The notes under the pieces: model-generated | Told to the model about the DNA's origin: nothing | Databases searched by the model: none | What the model saw: the letters and a program-made list of their open reading frames with translations, nothing else | Translations under genes and position numbers: made by a program | Shown here: positions 8,215-42,960 of the stretch, piece by piece | Numbering within the stretch: the stretch's first letter is position 1 | Layout: the number at the start of each line of letters is the position of its first letter | NCBI GenBank assembly: GCA_020846635.1 | Contig: JADLDO010000020.1 | Span: 1-64,000, forward strand | Length of the DNA stretch: 64,000 nt | Origin: Caldilineaceae bacterium | GTDB taxonomy: Bacteria > Chloroflexota > Anaerolineae > Caldilineales > Caldilineaceae | Direction: 5' to 3'

Positions 8215-9489
8215 CTAGTAGACTTTGGCGAAGGTGCCATTGGCGAGGTCTACCCCTGGCATGCCTAGCCCCTGTGCTTCTAGCCCGGTCAGTTCGCTGC
8301 GGAAGATGGCCCCGCCCTTCATCACCACTTGGATATTACGCAGGTCGCGGATCTGTTGGTCGGGCTTGCCGTCGATGACAAGCAGGTCAGCTTGCATCCC
8401 CGCTGCCAGCGTACCAGTGGTGCTTTCAATACCGCAGATTTTGGCGGATTGCGAGGTGGCGGCGGCGAGGGCCTGCAATTCGGTCAGCCCCGCCTCGACC
8501 AGCAGTTCTGCCTCACGGATGGTGGCGACAGTGCCATCGACCGGGTCGCTGGGCAGGAGGTCGGTGCCGGTGCCGATGGTGACACCGGCGGCGATGGCGC
8601 GGCGAATGGAGGCGAGGTGTTCTGCTGCGGCGGCTTTGGCCTTGCTCAGCATCCACTCCTGCACACCATGACGGCGCATATAGTCTAGCTCTTGGGTGAC
8701 ACAGAGGGTGGGAACCAGATAGGTTCCGGCCTCGGCCATCATCTGCGCCGCTTCCTCGTCAAACTGGTAGCCATGCTCGATACAATCCACGCCCAACCGC
8801 ACACAATCCTTGATGGGGTTATTGCCCCCTGTATGCGAGGCGACGATCTTGTGGGCGGCGTGGGCGGTTTCCACCACGGCGCTCACTTCGTCGTCGGTCA
8901 TCTGCTTGTCGGCAGGTTTCTCATCTTTTGTGCCGATGCCGCCGGTTAGGCAGACCTTGAGCAGATCTGCGCCTGCGCGCAATTGCTCGCGTGCCAGTTG
9001 GCGGAATCCTGCCACGCCATCTGCTTCCAAGCAGCCAATGGAGTTGTGACCGTGGCCGCCTGTGGCGATCATGGCATGGCCTGCGGAGAGGATGCGCGGC
9101 CCTGCTAGCACCCCTTTATTGATGGCGTTGCGCACGTCGATGTCGGTGAAATGGGCTTCGCCGACACAGCGGATGGTGGTTGTGCCGGTGTCGATGGCTT
9201 CCAGCGCGCGGCGATAGACGAGCATGGTGCGATAGCCGTGGGTGAACTGGTCAATGCGCCGTTCGGTAAAGGGCAGGCGCAGCGCGAGGTGGACATGGAC
9301 GTTAAAGAGACCGGGCATGACCGTCTTGCCCGCAACATCGACTACGCGGTCGCCGCTGCCAGGCTGAGGGGCTTGTGCTGCCGCGCCTGCGTAGGCGATT
9401 GACGTGTCGTTAATGATGACGGTGGCATCTTCCACCGCCGGCGCGCCTGTGCCATCGACCACGCGGGCGTTGGTCAAAAAGGTTTGCAT
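8215..9489 (-). CDS. Amidohydrolase (imidazolonepropionase/prolidase-like)
   Basis: A 424-residue metal-dependent amidohydrolase of the COG1228 type, which includes imidazolonepropionase and Xaa-Pro dipeptidase-like enzymes. An N-terminal composite beta sandwich ends in GKTVMPGLFNVHVHL (metal HxH near residue 62). ASHTGGN and IEHGYQF supply the further histidines, and IGTGTDLLP supplies the aspartate. The ATG at 9489 has AAGGAGAA about 7 bases upstream. The frame stays open upstream but that stretch is antisense shadow of the permease gene. It follows the DppC-like permease by 32 bases, so its substrate is probably what the transporter brings in. Confidence 0.88.
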   Translation of the reverse strand: MQTFLTNARVVDGTGAPAVEDATVIINDTSIAYAGAAAQAPQPGSGDRVVDVAGKTVMPGLFNVHVHLALRLPFTERRIDQFTHGYRTMLVYRRALEAIDTGTTTIRCVGEAHFTDIDVRNAINKGVLAGPRILSAGHAMIATGGHGHNSIGCLEADGVAGFRQLAREQLRAGADLLKVCLTGGIGTKDEKPADKQMTDDEVSAVVETAHAAHKIVASHTGGNNPIKDCVRLGVDCIEHGYQFDEEAAQMMAEAGTYLVPTLCVTQELDYMRRHGVQEWMLSKAKAAAAEHLASIRRAIAAGVTIGTGTDLLPSDPVDGTVATIREAELLVEAGLTELQALAAATSQSAKICGIESTTGTLAAGMQADLLVIDGKPDQQIRDLRNIQVVMKGGAIFRSELTGLEAQGLGMPGVDLANGTFAKVY

Positions 9490-9521
9490 GAAGTTCTCCT
9501 TAAAATAACTGCTTGAAATCA

Positions 9522-10367
9522 CTAATCTTTGCGACGGCTTAGGCCATCGCCCATGAGATTGCCGCCGATGACAAAGAGGGCGATGGCAACCCCTGGGAAA
9601 ACGGCGTTCCACCAGGCGATGCTCATAATGCTGCGCGCTTCGCTGACCATGCTGCCCCAGGCGGGGGTGGGGGGCTGCACGCCGAGGCCGAGAAAGCTGA
9701 GTGATGCCTCGTTGAGGATCATGGCAGACATGTTGACGGTGGCAATGACTGCCAGCGGCGGCAGCACCGAGGGCAGCAGATGCCGCCAGATCATGCGCCC
9801 GGTTCCCACGCCGATGGCACGCGCGGCCAGCATGAATTCCTGGTTGCGGAGGCTTAAGGTTGCGCCGCGGCTGACACGGGCATACTGTACCCAACTGACC
9901 AGGCCAAGCACGATGATGAGATTGGTCAGGCTTTGGCCCATGGCGGCGATGATGGCGATGGCAAGAAAGACGGGCGGAAAGGAAAGCTGAATGTCCATGA
10001 GCCGGGTCAGGAGGCGATCCACACCCCCGCCGAAGTAGCCGGCGATCATGCCCAGGGTAATGCCGATGGCCCCGCCGATCAGCACAGAAAAGAGGCCCAC
10101 TGCCGCGGAGACGCGCGCCCCAAACATGAGGCGTGAGAGCAGATCGCGGCCCAGCCGGTCGGTGCCGAGCAAATAGGCCGGGTCGCTGCCCTCCATCCAG
10201 ACAGGGGGCAGCATGCCTTTGGTCAGGTTTTGCTGTGCATAGTCGTGGGGGCTGAGCCATTTGGCAAAGATGGCGACAAAGATGATCCCCAGGATGAGGA
10301 TGAGTCCTACCCAAAATTGAGCAGGACGCCGCGTCCATTGGCGGCGGTTCTCGTTTTGTTTGAACAT
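9522..10367 (-). CDS. Peptide-type ABC transporter permease (DppC-like)
   Basis: A 281-residue inner-membrane permease of the OppC/DppC family. The N-terminal part shows one hydrophobic segment after a basic tail, then DYAQQNLTKGMLPP and LLGTDRLGRDLLSRL, which are typical. The cytoplasmic EAA loop reads AARAIGVGTGRMIWRHLLP, where the ATPase subunits would dock. It starts 6 bases after the DppB-like gene. No ATPase genes lie in the cluster or elsewhere in the window. Confidence 0.92.
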   Translation of the reverse strand: MFKQNENRRQWTRRPAQFWVGLILILGIIFVAIFAKWLSPHDYAQQNLTKGMLPPVWMEGSDPAYLLGTDRLGRDLLSRLMFGARVSAAVGLFSVLIGGAIGITLGMIAGYFGGGVDRLLTRLMDIQLSFPPVFLAIAIIAAMGQSLTNLIIVLGLVSWVQYARVSRGATLSLRNQEFMLAARAIGVGTGRMIWRHLLPSVLPPLAVIATVNMSAMILNEASLSFLGLGVQPPTPAWGSMVSEARSIMSIAWWNAVFPGVAIALFVIGGNLMGDGLSRRKD

Positions 10368-37664: not shown

Positions 37665-38225
37665 ATGTCTACTGCACAAGATTTTGATAACGAAGGTGGC
37701 GCACAGCCACAAGGAGAAGCGGCCTCTCAACCGGAGAGTGGGCCAACGCCGATGGGCCGCATGGCCGAGAATGCGCGTGAGCAAGCGAGCGCGGCGGCGG
37801 ATGCGCTGCGCCGAGGCGAGTTTATGCATGACGCAACGGTGGATGCAGAGGCGAGCCAGGATGATAAGCTGATCGCGCTGTTGTCCTATGTGACGCAAAT
37901 TGTGATCCCGTTGATTATGCCGGTGATCGTATTGCTCAGCGAGAGCAGCAAGAAGCGACCCTTCCAGCGCTACCATGCGGTACAGAGCTTGGCATTGTCG
38001 CTGCTCTTTATCGCGGTGGCGGCTGCGGCGACCATCGGTACGGGCATCATCCAGGTGATCCCGCTAATCGGTCAACTGGTGGCTTTACTGATGCTCTGTT
38101 TGATGCCAATTGCCTGGTTTATGGCGGTGATTGCGCTGCTTTACTACGGCTATCAGGCCTTCCAGGGCAAGCGCTTTGCGATTCCTGGCTTGACCAGCAT
38201 GCTGCGCGATCAGGGCTGGATCTAG
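37665..38225 (+). CDS. DUF4870/Tic20-like membrane protein
   Basis: A 186-residue protein. A 65-residue hydrophilic N-terminal part rich in Ala, Glu and Gln precedes a three-helix membrane domain of DUF4870 type ([44 protein letters not shown], then two further hydrophobic segments). RYHAVQSL is the family hallmark. AAAAAGGAGAG lies upstream of the ATG. An intrinsic terminator follows 46 bases after the stop. Function unknown. Confidence 0.8.
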
Positions 38226-38270
38226 CGTTGAGCTAGAAGCTACCTTGTAACATGAGCTTGTAAAACTCAA

Positions 38271-38307
38271 TAAAAAGGGCGGAGGTCATGACCTCCGCCC
38301 TTTTTAT
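38271..38307. terminator. Bidirectional intrinsic terminator
   Basis: TAAAAAGGGCGGAGGTCA pairs with TGACCTCCGCCCTTTTTA. It is a perfect GC stem flanked by A and T runs and ends the DUF4870-like gene's transcript. It separates that gene from the DUF2089/YvlB cluster. Confidence 0.92.
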
Positions 38308-38396
38308 TTTCTCAGCGGTATATTGATATTCTTGAAGTAGTTTGTAGGAAATATGTATAAACAGATACAAAATTCGGAAAGAATTAAAACACAGTA

Positions 38397-38424
38397 TTGA
38401 CAATCCTGATTTTTCTGTTATGCT
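38397..38424 (+). promoter_or_regulatory. Strong sigma70-type promoter
   Basis: TTGACA (38397-38402), a 16-base spacer and TATGCT (38419-38424). It is the best-matching promoter I found in the window. It sits about 66 bases before the small basic protein gene and probably drives the cluster to 41217. The surrounding sequence is markedly A/T-rich. Confidence 0.65.
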
Positions 38425-38490
38425 CTTTTAAGAAATTGCAACTGCATGTAAGAAAAGTAGTGACTGTAAGAAAAATAAGGAGTGATCGCC

Positions 38491-38700
38491 ATGATACATC
38501 CTGAAATGCCTCAACACTGCATCCTTGCATTCGACCACCATAAGCGGCTTTTGGAAGAGGCTGAGCGTCAGCGGCTCTACGCCGCTGTGGAGAGGCTGGC
38601 AGCAGCACGTCCCCGCCGTTTGCGCCGCCTGCGCTTGCGTGCCGGTAACTTGCTGATCAGCATGGGACGGCGGCTCAAGGCAGATGCAGTGTGGGGATAG
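38491..38700 (+). CDS. Small basic protein at head of DUF2089 cluster
   Basis: A 69-residue protein, acidic in the first half and strongly basic in the second (RPRRLRRLRLRAGNLL and GRRLKAD). It looks helical and could be amphipathic. AAGGAG is about 8 bases before the ATG, supporting expression despite its size. I do not recognise a family. It lies first behind a strong promoter and 69 bases ahead of the DUF2089 gene. Confidence 0.6.
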   Translation: MIHPEMPQHCILAFDHHKRLLEEAERQRLYAAVERLAAARPRRLRRLRLRAGNLLISMGRRLKADAVWG

Positions 38701-38769
38701 GCGATTGCTATCACCCCACAAAACTATCCGTACACGATTACTTACACGATCCTGAGAGGGAGCCTGAAG

Positions 38770-39156
38770 ATGAACCTATTACCCACACACAGTCCCTTTG
38801 ATGGCGGCGAGATTGTCGTCACCCGTTTTTACTGTCCGGGCAGTGATACGACAGTCGAGGGGCGTTTTGCGGTCGTTGCGCCGTTTCCCCAACTGTCGCC
38901 CGAACAACTGCACTTTGTTGAAACCTTCTTGCGCTGCGAAGGCAAGCTCTCACGCATGGAAGGTGAGTTGAATCTCTCCTATCCCACGCTGCGCAGCCGT
39001 TTGCATGACATCATTCGTGCGCTTGGCTATGAGCCGGGCAAGGAGGAGCCGCCGGCGGTGAGCGAGGAGCGCCGCCGCTCCATTCTCGACGAGTTGGATG
39101 CAGGGCGTATTTCCTTTGATGATGCAATGGCGCAACTCCAGGCTGGAGAGTCATAG
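38770..39156 (+). CDS. DUF2089 family protein
   Basis: A 128-residue protein of the DUF2089 type, likely a small DNA-binding regulator. An N-terminal strand region with one cysteine (RFYCPGSDTTVEGRF) replaces the usual zinc ribbon. A helix-turn-helix follows (LSYPTLRSRLHDIIRALGYE). The C-terminal helices EERRRSILDELDAGRISFDDAMAQL resemble the short motif found in the next two proteins. GAGGGAG precedes the ATG. It probably controls this cluster or senses its products; that is inference. Confidence 0.82.
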   Translation: MNLLPTHSPFDGGEIVVTRFYCPGSDTTVEGRFAVVAPFPQLSPEQLHFVETFLRCEGKLSRMEGELNLSYPTLRSRLHDIIRALGYEPGKEEPPAVSEERRRSILDELDAGRISFDDAMAQLQAGES

Positions 39157-39189
39157 GGTTTTTCATAGAAGCTAATCAGGAGCATAGAC

Positions 39190-40677
39190 ATGAGTATTGA
39201 AAAGAGCTTTGAAACGAGCCAAACCCCTCATCTGATCATCGGCCAGATCCACGGGAACATGCAGTTACGGGCTTGGGATGAGTCGCGCGTGTCGGTCAGC
39301 GGCAATGGCAGCGGCAATGGCAACGACTATCGCCTGCGGCAGGAGGGTGACCAGATTGTATTGGGCGACTTTGATGATTGCCGCATTTTTGTTCCCATCG
39401 CAGCCAGTGTGACGCTGGGCGATGTCCACGGTAATGCGCAGGTGACAGGGATGCGCGGCCAACTGAAGATCCAGCATATTCACGGCAATCTGCACGCTCA
39501 AGAGATCGGCTCGACGCAGTTGGGCAGGGTCGATGGCGACTGTCCATTGCGTGATGTGGCCGGGCCGCTGGTCGTGGGCGCTGTGGGCGGCAATTTTCAT
39601 GCGGCTGAGGTGAAGGGCAACCTACAACTTGAGAAGTGCGGTGGGAATTGCACTCTGCGTGAAGTCGAGGGGGAAGCCACAGTAGGCCGGGTCGGTGGCA
39701 ATCTGATGGCACAGGAGACACTGGCATTGGCCGTTGACAATGTGCATGGCAATGCCACCCTCAAAGAATCAAAAGGCGGCGTACTGATTCACAAGGTTTC
39801 GGGCAATGTTACGGCGACGGAGACGGTTGGTGAGCTTGAAATTGAGTGGATCGGTGGCGAACTGCGGGTGCGTGAATTGGCGGGCGCTTTGAATGCAAAG
39901 GCTGGGGGAACTGCTACCCTGTATTTGCAGGAGCTTTCTACCCCGCAGGTTACCGTCAAAGCCGGTGGCGACATACGCTGCCGCGTGCCGCTGACGCTCG
40001 ATGCGACATTGGGATTGCGCGCGGGCAATGAAATTGTGGTCAAGAATCTGCCCTTGCCAAACGACTGGGACTCACATTACATGGAGTTTACCGTGGGCAG
40101 CGGCGAAGGGCGGCTTGAACTGGATGCGGGGAATCGTATCAAGTTGATCGGCACAGCGGACGATGACAGCACCCCTGAGTGGGGCTTCGAAGAGGAGTTC
40201 TCTGCCTACTATGACTTGCATGACTTAAACGAGCGCGCGGCGGAGATGGTACAACAGGTTGCCGAACAGGTGGAAGCGCAGGTGGAAGCCGTGACGCGCC
40301 AGCTAAATGAACGGCTCTCGCAGTTGGATAGCGGCGATGCCATTGCCGCCAAAGTCCAGCAGAAAATGCAGGCGGCTATGCGCCGCGCCGAGGAGAAGAT
40401 TGCCGAAGCCATGCGCCGCGCTGAACAGCAGGCCGAGCGACAAGCCGAACGGCAGGCCGCGCGTGATGAGCGCCGCCGCGTGCGCGTGATGACCCCTTTC
40501 CCGTCCGTCCCGCCGATTGTGTCGGTTGGCGCGGTTCCTCCAATTCCACCCCAACCTGCCAAACCCAAGCGCGCCCCGGCTTCCAGCGAGGAGCGTATGA
40601 TGGTGCTGCGGATGGTGGAGGAAGGCAAGATTTCGGTGGAACAGGCCGAAAAGTTGCTGGCGGCAATGGGTGATTAA
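39190..40677 (+). CDS. Beta-helix (DUF4097-like) protein with YvlB-type tail
   Basis: A 495-residue protein. Residues 15-290 form repeated strands of the type VHGN..V..., VGGNFHAAEVKGNLQL and VGGNLMAQE, about 20-22 residues each, suggesting a right-handed beta helix like DUF4097/YvlB proteins. A coiled-coil stretch (340-430, VAEQVEAQVEAVTRQLNERL and alanine/arginine-rich repeats) and a proline-rich linker follow. The end (SSEERMMVLRMVEEGKISVE onward) is a SHOCT-like/YvlB helical motif. No signal peptide, so it is cytoplasmic. Bacillus YvlB-type relatives belong to envelope-stress operons, a possible role here. Confidence 0.8.
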   Translation: MSIEKSFETSQTPHLIIGQIHGNMQLRAWDESRVSVSGNGSGNGNDYRLRQEGDQIVLGDFDDCRIFVPIAASVTLGDVHGNAQVTGMRGQLKIQHIHGNLHAQEIGSTQLGRVDGDCPLRDVAGPLVVGAVGGNFHAAEVKGNLQLEKCGGNCTLREVEGEATVGRVGGNLMAQETLALAVDNVHGNATLKESKGGVLIHKVSGNVTATETVGELEIEWIGGELRVRELAGALNAKAGGTATLYLQELSTPQVTVKAGGDIRCRVPLTLDATLGLRAGNEIVVKNLPLPNDWDSHYMEFTVGSGEGRLELDAGNRIKLIGTADDDSTPEWGFEEEFSAYYDLHDLNERAAEMVQQVAEQVEAQVEAVTRQLNERLSQLDSGDAIAAKVQQKMQAAMRRAEEKIAEAMRRAEQQAERQAERQAARDERRRVRVMTPFPSVPPIVSVGAVPPIPPQPAKPKRAPASSEERMMVLRMVEEGKISVEQAEKLLAAMGD

Positions 40678-40749
40678 GCGCCGTTCCCACTGGACAGAGA
40701 GGCGCAAGAATAGAGTGTCGAAAAGAGAGTAAGGAGAATAAGGTGATCT

Positions 40750-41217
40750 ATGCTACCATTGACCCCAGAGAGAACAACTGAAACGGTGAGAGAGGCGGGG
40801 GCAGGTGCGCCGCCCGCCCAAGAGTCTGCGACGATTGATGAGGATAGCATGGCGAGCAGCGCCGAACGGATGACAATCCTGCGTATGATAGAGCAGGGCA
40901 AGATTTCTGCCGAGGATGGCGCACGCTTGTTGGCGGCGTTGGGTGAGCGCGATCAACCAGAGGCGCAGCCGCGTGCCAATATCTTTGACAGTGCGCGCAC
41001 TCTCCAGGTGCGCGTGACCGACCTGGGCACGAACCGGCAAAAGGTGAATGTGAATTTACCTGTGGGTTTAATGCAACTGGCTTGGCGCTGGCTGCCTAGT
41101 TCGGCGCAGGCGCAATTTGAGAAAGTGCAAGCCGCCATCGACGCAGGCCAAGTGGGGCGACTGGTCGAGGTGGTGGATCAGGATTCGGGTGTGCGCGTGG
41201 AGATTACGCTCATGTAG
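40750..41217 (+). CDS. SHOCT/YvlB-motif protein
   Basis: A 155-residue soluble protein. Residues 37-66 (SSAERMTILRMIEQGKISAE onward) closely match the C-terminal motif of the preceding protein. The rest (LQVRVTDLGTNRQKVNVNLPVGLMQLAWRWLP, then a strand VVDQDSGVRVEITLM) matches a domain often attached to this motif. The start ATG at 40750 lies 72 bases after the previous gene. A palindrome follows 46 bases after the stop. Confidence 0.75.
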   Translation: MLPLTPERTTETVREAGAGAPPAQESATIDEDSMASSAERMTILRMIEQGKISAEDGARLLAALGERDQPEAQPRANIFDSARTLQVRVTDLGTNRQKVNVNLPVGLMQLAWRWLPSSAQAQFEKVQAAIDAGQVGRLVEVVDQDSGVRVEITLM

Positions 41218-41262
41218 CGCGGCACGAATCACTAGAGCCAGTGACGTGACATAAGTCTACAG

Positions 41263-41294
41263 CCTTCCCGGAAGCTCTAAAGCTTCCGGGAAGG
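41263..41294. repeat. Dispersed GC-rich palindrome
   Basis: CCTTCCCGGAAGCTCT pairs with AGCTTCCGGGAAGG. Both arms carry a matching change (GGGAAGG for GGGAGGG), so the base pairing is conserved while the sequence has drifted. It lies 46 bases after a stop codon, with no T run. Confidence 0.78.
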
Positions 41295-41460
41295 TGTTTA
41301 TGGGGCCTACTCTCCTGTGCGCCAAAGCGGTTTGCGGTCAGCGCTACGTCAGGCATTTTGTCATAATTCGGCTACAATGAAGTGGAAACGCGAACCATTC
41401 GATTCCCAGGATGGGGTTGTGATGGCATCGCTAGAAAGTCCAAGAAGGGGGACAAAATTC

Positions 41461-41898
41461 ATGGAAAATTGGCTTTCTTGGGCGTGGTTTGTGTTGGCTC
41501 TGCTCTTTACCATCGCCGAGATCTTTACAAGCGGTTTCTTTCTGGTCTGTTTTGGGGCCGGTGCTGCGGTGGCGGCAGTGGCGGGCTTTTTGGGTTTTAG
41601 CCCATTGGCCCAATTTGCTGTTTTTATCGGGGCATCGGGTCTGGCCTTGTTCTTGGTACGTCCCTTTGCCAACCGTGTGAGCAATCCGAATACGCACATG
41701 GTGGGCATTGATCGCGTGCTGGGCCGCGAGGGGATTGTGTTGGAGACGATTGATCCGGCGCGCGGCAGTGGTGTCGTGCGCGTGGGCCATGAGCCGTGGT
41801 CTGCCGATGCCGCCGACGGCATGCCGATTGCGGCGGGTGTTATGGTACAGGTGGTGGGGGTGGAAGGGACGCATCTGAAGGTGCGTGTCGCTGTTTGA
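41461..41898 (+). CDS. NfeD family membrane protein
   Basis: A 145-residue NfeD protein of the short type. Three N-terminal hydrophobic helices (WFVLALLFTIAEIFTSGFFLV, AAVAAVAGFLGF and FAVFIGASGLALFLV) precede a C-terminal OB fold (LGREGIVLETIDPARGSGVVRV, ending in GTHLKVRVAV). Such proteins pair with SPFH/stomatin proteins, and one follows here. The ATG at 41461 is chosen because the fold begins there. Earlier in-frame ATGs (41377 and 41422) would add charged residues. Confidence 0.88.
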   Translation: MENWLSWAWFVLALLFTIAEIFTSGFFLVCFGAGAAVAAVAGFLGFSPLAQFAVFIGASGLALFLVRPFANRVSNPNTHMVGIDRVLGREGIVLETIDPARGSGVVRVGHEPWSADAADGMPIAAGVMVQVVGVEGTHLKVRVAV

Positions 41899-42018
41899 TG
41901 GCGGTTATGACATTTGATGCGAAATGCGGCGAATACAAGGTAAGCTTGGATCAGACTTGCCTAAAGATAGACTTTGTTAGAGACAATTAGAGATAACGTA
42001 GGATAAAGGAGTGTTGTG

Positions 42019-42960
42019 ATGGGTGATTTTGCCGTCTTGGTTGCGTTAATTATGCTGGCTGTCTTTCTGTTTATCATTGCGCTGACAGGGCTGCGGATTG
42101 TCAATCCTCATGAAAAAGGGGTGATCGAACGTTTGGGGCGCTATCACCATACCGCCCAGCCAGGGCTGAATTTCCTTATGCCCATTCTGGACTCCATGCG
42201 TAAGGTCGATATGCGCGAGCAGGTGGTGGACGTCCAGCCGCAGGAGGTGATCACGAAGGATAATGTGGTGGTGACGGTGGATGCGATTATCTACTATGAA
42301 GCCACTGACCCGGTGAAGTTGACCTATAATGTGGCGGATTTCTATGGCGCAGCGACCAAGCTGGCGCAGACGAACTTGCGTAACGTGGTCGGTGAAACGG
42401 AGTTGGACGAGGCGCTAACGTCCCGCGATATGATCAACGCCAAACTGCGTGAGGTGCTGGACGACGCAACCGATAAGTGGGGTGTGCGCATTGTGCGCGT
42501 GGAGATCAAGCGCATTGACCCTCCTGTGGATGTAACGCAAGCCATGCACCGCCAGATGAAGGCCGAGCGTGAGAAGCGTGCCCAAATTTTGGAAGCCGAA
42601 GGACAGCGCCAGTCGCGTGTATTGGAAGCGGAAGGCGAGGCCGAGTCGGTGCGTTTGGTGGCAGATGCGGAACGTTACAAGCGTGAGGTCGAAGCAGCAG
42701 GTCAGGCCAATGCGATCACCACGGTCTTTTCGGCCATCCGCAACGCCAACCCGGATGACAAGCTGATCGCGATTCAGTATCTCGATTCGCTCAAGGCGAT
42801 CTCGAATGGGAGCGCCAACAAGGTCTTTATTCCCTATGAAGCGACTGGAGTTCTAGGGGCGCTTGGCGGTATTCAGGAGTTGTTTAAGGATAGGGCGAAT
42901 GGCGCGCCGGTAATTGAGGTGCCGTCGAATCCGAGCCAGCCGCCATCAAATTTGACGTAA
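42019..42960 (+). CDS. SPFH/band 7 (stomatin-like) protein
   Basis: A 313-residue membrane-bound SPFH protein of the stomatin/QmcA type. One N-terminal membrane helix is followed by the SPFH domain ([51 protein letters not shown]) and a coiled-coil tail rich in Glu, Ala and Arg ([20 protein letters not shown]). AAAGGAG lies 7 bases before the ATG. It follows the NfeD gene by 120 bases. The pair forms membrane microdomain scaffolds. Confidence 0.93.

Follow-up and report, generated by a model that had tools for sequence, protein, structure and literature searches.

Why should three successive genes, encoding a DNA-binding protein, a beta-helix protein and a small third protein, all carry the same short pair of helices, and what might the sharing do for the cell? 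The question is raised by a stretch of 64,000 nucleotides from a Caldilineaceae bacterium of the phylum Chloroflexota (GenBank assembly GCA_020846635.1, contig JADLDO010000020.1, positions 1 to 64,000; hereafter the window), in which one promoter precedes a unit of four genes, with hairpins on both flanks: a small lead gene, a gene for a DUF2089 protein, a gene for the beta-helix protein and a gene for the 155-residue third protein. The original prediction, made from the DNA letters, held that the last three share a helical motif through which they may bind one another, as a module linking an envelope-stress sensor to a DNA-binding protein. The motif is indeed found in all three, at the two C termini and near the one N terminus where it had been placed, and a hidden Markov model search recognized it as an already named domain, Pfam PF22746 (SHOCT-like_DUF2089-C). 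The reading that we develop here, to which we give an even balance of belief, is that of an autoregulated envelope-stress operon in which this short two-helix domain would serve as a common docking tag. SHOCT-like domains are widespread; here, a DNA-binding protein, a putative scaffold and a small partner encoded in one operon all bear such a domain, and a candidate operator accompanies them.

A SHOCT-like domain on three proteins of one operon

The curated cut-off of PF22746 is 27 bits. In a Pfam scan of the window proteins, the beta-helix protein (residues 467-494, 40.3 bits, expectation value (E) 2e-10) and the third protein (residues 39-68, 38.3 bits, E 8.9e-10) exceeded it, and the DUF2089 protein fell below it (residues 100-125, 13.3 bits, E 0.065). 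We accept the last as a probable drifted copy, weak alone, because the family takes its name from the C termini of DUF2089 proteins, because the DUF2089 protein of a related locus (L086) scores better (E 8.7e-4) and because the window copy is the third-best match of its genome. A search of that entire genome (6.85 Mb, 79 contigs) returned the window trio as its top three matches (E 5.5e-11 for the beta-helix protein, then 1.4e-9 and 0.16), the fourth standing at E 0.66. The sharing of the motif thus exceeds chance, and within the source genome PF22746 is confined to one operon.

The DUF2089 protein belongs to its family by its intact helix-turn-helix (HTH; PF09862, 75.8 bits against a cut-off of 33.4, E 2.1e-21), which follows a zinc ribbon just short of its own threshold (PF22747, 27.5 bits against 27.6, E 3.4e-6). 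The ribbon (38770-38870) retains one of its four cysteine ligands. When genome contigs of bacteria and archaea were scanned with the DUF2089 protein, 63 loci were obtained for comparison, 64 with the window; partial decay of the ribbon recurs in two of these (L069, L073) and in two relatives from the same genus (L045, L047), and the remaining loci keep the CPxC...CxxC pattern except for L131, whose copy has an internal deletion. Counting the pattern by regular expression gave 58 of 64, a figure that also overlooks two proteins extended far at the N terminus (L077, L096). Searching the sequences of the Protein Data Bank (PDB) with the DUF2089 protein or the beta-helix protein produced no useful relatives of either.

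For the beta-helix protein, an AlphaFold2 model with a predicted local distance difference test score (pLDDT) of 87.6 lays out strands over residues 2-322, a coiled coil over 346-432 and the two hairpin helices at 466-477 and 483-492. The best Foldseek hits to this model were 4QRK (E 1.3e-4), 3PET (1.9e-4), 3LYC (5.3e-4) and 4OPW (0.013), and 4QRK and 4OPW are structures cited for the Toastrack fold by Ravi et al. (2024; PMC11237479). Superposition with VIA-align gave Z 12.1 for 4OPW (3.8 A, 205 residues aligned) and Z 9.6 for 4QRK (2.7 A, 150 aligned), with other beta-helices reaching Z 16.0, above the Toastrack entries. We assign the protein to the Toastrack group because of the Foldseek ranking, a weak match to the NCBIfam LiaG model (23.4 bits against a cut-off of 285) and relatives that match DUF4097; the likeness of the modeled fold is firm. 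In one such relative (L086), DUF4097 (cut-off 22.9 bits) scores 18.1 bits with the beta-helix protein and 49.9 bits with a second Toastrack gene (9065-9973) 3' of the third protein, which has a C-terminal SHOCT-like match of its own (E 4.1e-4); some operons would on this count have five tagged proteins. LiaX and YvlB, of the LiaFSR and Yvl systems in Bacillota, likewise join a Toastrack-type beta-helix to a helical or SHOCT-like piece and are encoded in membrane-stress operons. The window protein differs from them in its reversed order, with the SHOCT-like domain C-terminal, and in its long coiled coil; it gave no match to the NCBIfam LiaX model and is not placed in the LiaX/LiaFSR group, and the eight neighboring proteins scanned include no LiaFSR or PspC gene product.

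The third protein joins its hairpin to a small C-terminal alpha/beta domain that matches no Pfam or NCBIfam family and for which Foldseek found nothing at E 0.001. The best VIA-align candidate, the CCT domain of human SPAK (Z 5.0, 3.2 A, 72 residues), was tied with unrelated entries, and no fold was assigned; PDB sequence matches to designed armadillo repeats lay along one helical stretch and were judged chance. Most relatives outside the genus begin near residue 34 (40 aligned proteins), from which a start at ATG 40849 had been considered; it was dropped since two genomes of the same genus retain the N-terminal extension as an open frame behind a ribosome-binding-like AAGGAG, and the annotated start of the 155-residue protein is plausible. 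In 10 of the 64 loci, a further protein combines the same C-terminal domain with one to three hydrophobic, membrane-like segments; the two of these that were scanned with Pfam (L086, L087) begin with PF22746.

Gene linkage in relatives and the lead gene

Unlinked genes in relatives had been named as what would speak against a shared module, and the opposite was found: the genes are strongly linked and occur together. The third protein is present in 55 of the 64 loci, and seven of the nine loci that miss it end less than 1.9 kb downstream; the other two (L073, L118) show 6 kb downstream of DUF2089 without it. Among the 55 DUF2089 loci of 61 related genomes, a third protein lies less than 8 kb downstream on the same strand in 38, and at least one further PF22746 domain does so in 47. 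Of the PF22746 matches examined, all 115 have a DUF2089 or third-protein gene at a distance of 10 kb or less. The presence of DUF2089 is concordant with that of other SHOCT-like proteins in 58 of the 61 genomes (Fisher 2e-9) and in 22 of the 24 outside the window's family (6e-5), both probabilities being figures that ignore shared ancestry. Across 121 genomes of the phylum, DUF2089 was found in 83, a third-protein-like match in 60 and the two together in 57; of the 61 third-protein-like places, 56 follow a DUF2089 gene that lies less than 5 kb upstream in the same orientation.

The association extends to Bacillota, where plasmids of Niallia taxi and Paraclostridium bifermentans encode a homologue of the third protein directly after DUF2089 (E 5e-18 and 3e-26, respectively), followed by a short protein that resembles the C-terminal domain alone. 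This domain, which travels with DUF2089 in both Chloroflexota and Bacillota, is worth naming. In Legionella adelaidensis, the gene after DUF2089 starts by eye like the SHOCT-like hairpin and continues with several hydrophobic segments; the hairpin gave no profile match at E 0.01. In several relatives, the operon is interrupted by transporter-like genes that look by eye like the ATP-binding cassette or major facilitator superfamily (MFS) type (L078, 2629-4457; L080, 8773-9561; L122, 5105-6394), which suggests an export output.

The lead gene had been described as an unknown basic protein of 69 residues at the head of the set. It has no Pfam or NCBIfam name, and yet it is no orphan: it belongs to a conserved family of small proteins. 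Its length is 69 residues from ATG 38491 or 72 from GTG 38482, and its C-terminal stretch of 20 residues carries a charge of +7. A profile built from 13 upstream proteins, whose selection with a motif pattern makes membership partly circular, gave 25 matches (to E 0.06) in a search of 10,745 reading frames from the loci. Every match has the orientation of the operon, and its end falls in the interval from 1,490 bases 5' to 27 bases 3' of the DUF2089 start. Nine of the matched loci or copies lie outside the seeds (L084, L130, the second L104 copy, L071, L120, L082, L099, L108 and L085). In five loci (L082, L085, L099, L108, L120), the lead gene precedes a transporter-like gene, MFS-like by eye, which is itself 5' of DUF2089, and at L104 it stands ahead of DUF2089 in two tandem copies (1570-1794 and 1871-2116). 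Among the 61 genomes, it occurs 5' of DUF2089 in 23 of 55 loci, and 34 of the 59 lead-family places used are away from DUF2089, for example after regulators that are GntR-like by eye. So many places elsewhere indicate that the lead gene is a member of a wider family of small basic proteins that was recruited by the operon. Members in this class are basic and roughly 65-100 residues long (also L132-L144).

The promoter and its repeats

A strong promoter had been proposed ahead of the gene set, and the comparison bears this out, the element being near consensus, extended by TG and conserved in relatives (Table 1). TTGAC followed after 16 or 17 bases by TAnnnT stands 5' of the first gene in 50 of the 64 loci, the window included, with a spacer of 16 in 41 and of 17 in nine. 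The mean best promoter score there is 10.7 of 12 (plus 0.5 for TG) against 8.2 in shuffled sequence, and a score of at least 10 was reached in 53 of 63 loci against 6.6 expected, the shuffles preserving base composition only.

Short repeats accompany this promoter. Of the 43 non-redundant loci, 16 have the word TATCAATA or TATTGATA 5' of the -35 box; in 1000 dinucleotide shuffles, the mean was 0.68 loci and the highest count 5. The 22 AT-rich control stretches from the same loci, a small control, had none. Counted from the start of the -35 box, favored starts lie near -45 and -24, and also -14, and TATTGACA adds another copy on the -35 box itself. The exact pair TATCAATA-N13-TATCAATA has four occurrences in the 61 genomes, all of which, by comparison of coordinates, are at this promoter. 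With up to one mismatch, the pair has 14 places, six at this promoter and eight elsewhere, against three for the backward control; no clear regulon was seen when one was sought with this pair in the 61 genomes. An expectation-maximization motif search returned mostly A/T-rich words and gained little. Repeats of this kind near a near-consensus promoter suggest that DUF2089 controls its own operon.

Table 1. The operon and its flanking signals in the window (coordinates counted from its first letter).
Feature	Coordinates	Strand	Basis or detail
Intrinsic terminator of upstream DUF4870 gene (predicted)	38275..38302	+	Perfect 12-bp stem then UUUUUAUUUU, -22.9 kcal/mol, z -5.6
Operator-like word TATTGATA	38321..38328	+	76 bp 5' of -35 box; enriched at this promoter in relatives
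Operator-like word TATTGACA overlapping -35 box	38395..38402	+	TA before TTGAC in 20/43 non-redundant loci
Promoter TTGACA-N16-TATGCT with TG extension	38397..38424	+	10/12 consensus
Lead gene, 69-residue basic protein, cationic C-terminal stretch	38491..38700	+	Profile matches, alignment, genome searches
DUF2089 protein: decayed zinc ribbon, HTH, C-terminal SHOCT-like domain	38770..39156	+	Pfam matches
SHOCT-like domain of DUF2089 protein	39067..39150	+	PF22746 protein scan and genome search
Toastrack-like beta-helix protein, coiled coil, C-terminal SHOCT-like hairpin	39190..40677	+	AlphaFold2 model, Foldseek
SHOCT-like domain of beta-helix protein	40588..40671	+	PF22746 E 2e-10; 5.5e-11 in genome search
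Third protein: genus-specific N-terminal extension, SHOCT-like hairpin, small alpha/beta C-terminal domain	40750..41217	+	PF22746, alignment, AlphaFold2
SHOCT-like domain of third protein	40864..40953	+	PF22746 protein scan and genome search
C-terminal domain of third protein, strand-strand-helix-helix-helix-strand-strand, unnamed	40996..41214	+	Secondary structure of AlphaFold2 model
Strong hairpin closing operon, weak U tract	41262..41295	+	15-bp stem, z -5.7

Possible roles: docking or anchoring

How might these parts work together? The DUF2089 protein, by its HTH, would bind the TATCAATA-type repeats that lie 5' of the -35 box and overlap it, and would most likely repress its own operon; with the gene of an HTH protein so close to repeats that reach into a near-consensus promoter, autorepression is the simplest interpretation, and the protein is probably an autoregulator. 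The Toastrack-like beta-helix protein and the third protein would form a scaffold near the membrane, with the SHOCT-like hairpin of each of the three proteins docking with the hairpins of the other two. The state of this scaffold, as affected by envelope damage, would then set the amount of DUF2089 protein free for the promoter, such that an autorepressor tethered to a Toastrack scaffold through its SHOCT-like domain might be released or captured under envelope stress. The predicted module of stress sensor and DNA-binding protein therefore stands in part: the Toastrack resemblance and the HTH protein are present, and the idea fits the published proposal that such gene sets link a membrane signal to transcription (PMC11237479), with envelope stress as the supposed signal. 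Also in favor of the docking model are the confinement of the domain to these genes, their linkage and co-occurrence, the promoter with its repeats, the membrane forms of tagged proteins in relatives and the contacts that the Toastrack protein YvlB makes with PspA and LiaH in two-hybrid tests (PMC9239133).

Several observations count against this docking model. A self-association test reported for the canonical SHOCT domain was negative (PMC3581485), and homotypic binding of the hairpins is accordingly not to be assumed. Of the 121 phylum genomes, 26 have DUF2089 and lack the third protein, and the trio is therefore not obligatory. The full 8-base word is missing in 27 of the 43 non-redundant loci, and the window itself has a single outlying TATTGATA in addition to the -35 word, farther out than the common positions. 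The DUF4097 Pfam model gave no match to the window beta-helix protein at E 1 and none above its cut-off in the source genome. Finally, a Pfam scan of the eight neighboring proteins revealed no sigma factor, two-component pair, kinase, response regulator or PspC.

A bolder form of the docking model can be put forward, though we regard it as tentative and rather doubtful. The hairpin might act as a "zip code" attached to the repressor, to the Toastrack scaffold, to a small soluble domain and, in relatives, also to a form of this domain anchored in the membrane. Envelope damage would be reported by the number of scaffold hairpins free to hold the repressor off the promoter repeats, and neither a kinase nor a sigma or anti-sigma factor would take part.

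Membrane anchoring offers another use for the domain. Ravi et al. (2024) propose the SHOCT-like domain as a membrane anchor for membrane-stress proteins without membrane segments of their own (PMC11237479), and each protein here could be tethered separately at the inner leaflet with no mutual docking. The composition of the domain speaks against this. Mean net charge is -1.55 in the DUF2089 segments (n=64), -1.79 in those of the beta-helix proteins (n=29) and -1.05 in those of the third proteins (n=40), with 0.34, 0.10 and 0.00 aromatic residues per domain, respectively, unlike the usual amphipathic lipid anchors. Hairpins so acidic and so nearly free of aromatic residues favor protein docking over lipid binding, and it is on charge and composition that we rank anchoring below docking. 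Moreover, a tether would be redundant in the 10 loci where a SHOCT-like protein has its own transmembrane segments, and the cationic stretch of the operon sits in the lead protein instead. We consider the membrane tether unlikely; with three small proteins and one promoter, the choice between it and docking becomes directly testable.

Equally unlikely, in our estimation, is that the domain binds a common outside partner, such as a protease adaptor, PspA or RNA polymerase, the three proteins not binding each other. The authors of the SHOCT study did suggest binding to something besides the domain itself (PMC3581485), YvlB has the two-hybrid contacts with PspA and LiaH noted above (PMC9239133), and the genome has one PspA-family match (PF04012, E 1.1e-18), on another contig (G000:C54). 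However, such a partner does not require PF22746 matches and the gene set to travel together as they do, and none was recognized beside the window genes among the eight proteins scanned. Least probable of all, and in our view very unlikely, is that the shared domain is a relic of duplication within an old operon, without present interaction: short domains do spread by duplication and the DUF2089 copy has drifted, but the three consensus sequences remain similar to each other, alignments of the third and beta-helix proteins across deep divergence have few invariant positions, some of which lie in the hairpin, and co-occurrence is near complete.

The docking model builds on systems already described in part. 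Ravi et al. (2024; PMC11237479) describe DUF2089 as zinc ribbon, HTH and SHOCT-like domain within a four-gene Toastrack context, and the window shares with that account the DUF2089 architecture, the Toastrack partner and SHOCT-like domains at N or C termini. It departs from their description in its decayed zinc ribbon, small lead gene and promoter repeats; the third protein, with its SHOCT-like N terminus and unnamed C-terminal domain, may be among their four genes. As in the account of SHOCT (PMC3581485), the domain is a short, often C-terminal pair of helices common to otherwise unrelated proteins, though PF22746 is a separate, SHOCT-like Pfam family. In a published table of bacteriocin clusters, one cluster includes a DUF2089 protein together with a Yip1-family membrane protein (PMC10707071). 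Open-access literature, searched by title and abstract with supplements excluded, held no treatment of this Chloroflexota operon, the third-protein C-terminal domain, the lead family or the promoter repeats. Apparently, then, the last three are new, and the SHOCT-like domain and part of the gene set were known.

As for the surroundings, an Rfam search of 38200-41500 and a search of plasmid DNA gave no match. Just 5' of the operon, at 37665-38225, lies a gene for a DUF4870-like (Tic20-related) membrane protein, whose own predicted terminator separates it from the operon and whose PF09685 (Tic20) match is slightly under the cut-off; the same neighbor occurs in L069 and L073, and, judged by a matching tail, in L045 and L047. 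On the 3' side, NfeD-type and band-7 (stomatin-like) genes occupy 41317-42960; L080 has homologues close to its operon, and L078 has a band-7 gene there. SHOCT is often found with band-7 proteins and also with Tic20/PF09685 proteins (PMC3581485), and both of these SHOCT-associated types adjoin the window operon.

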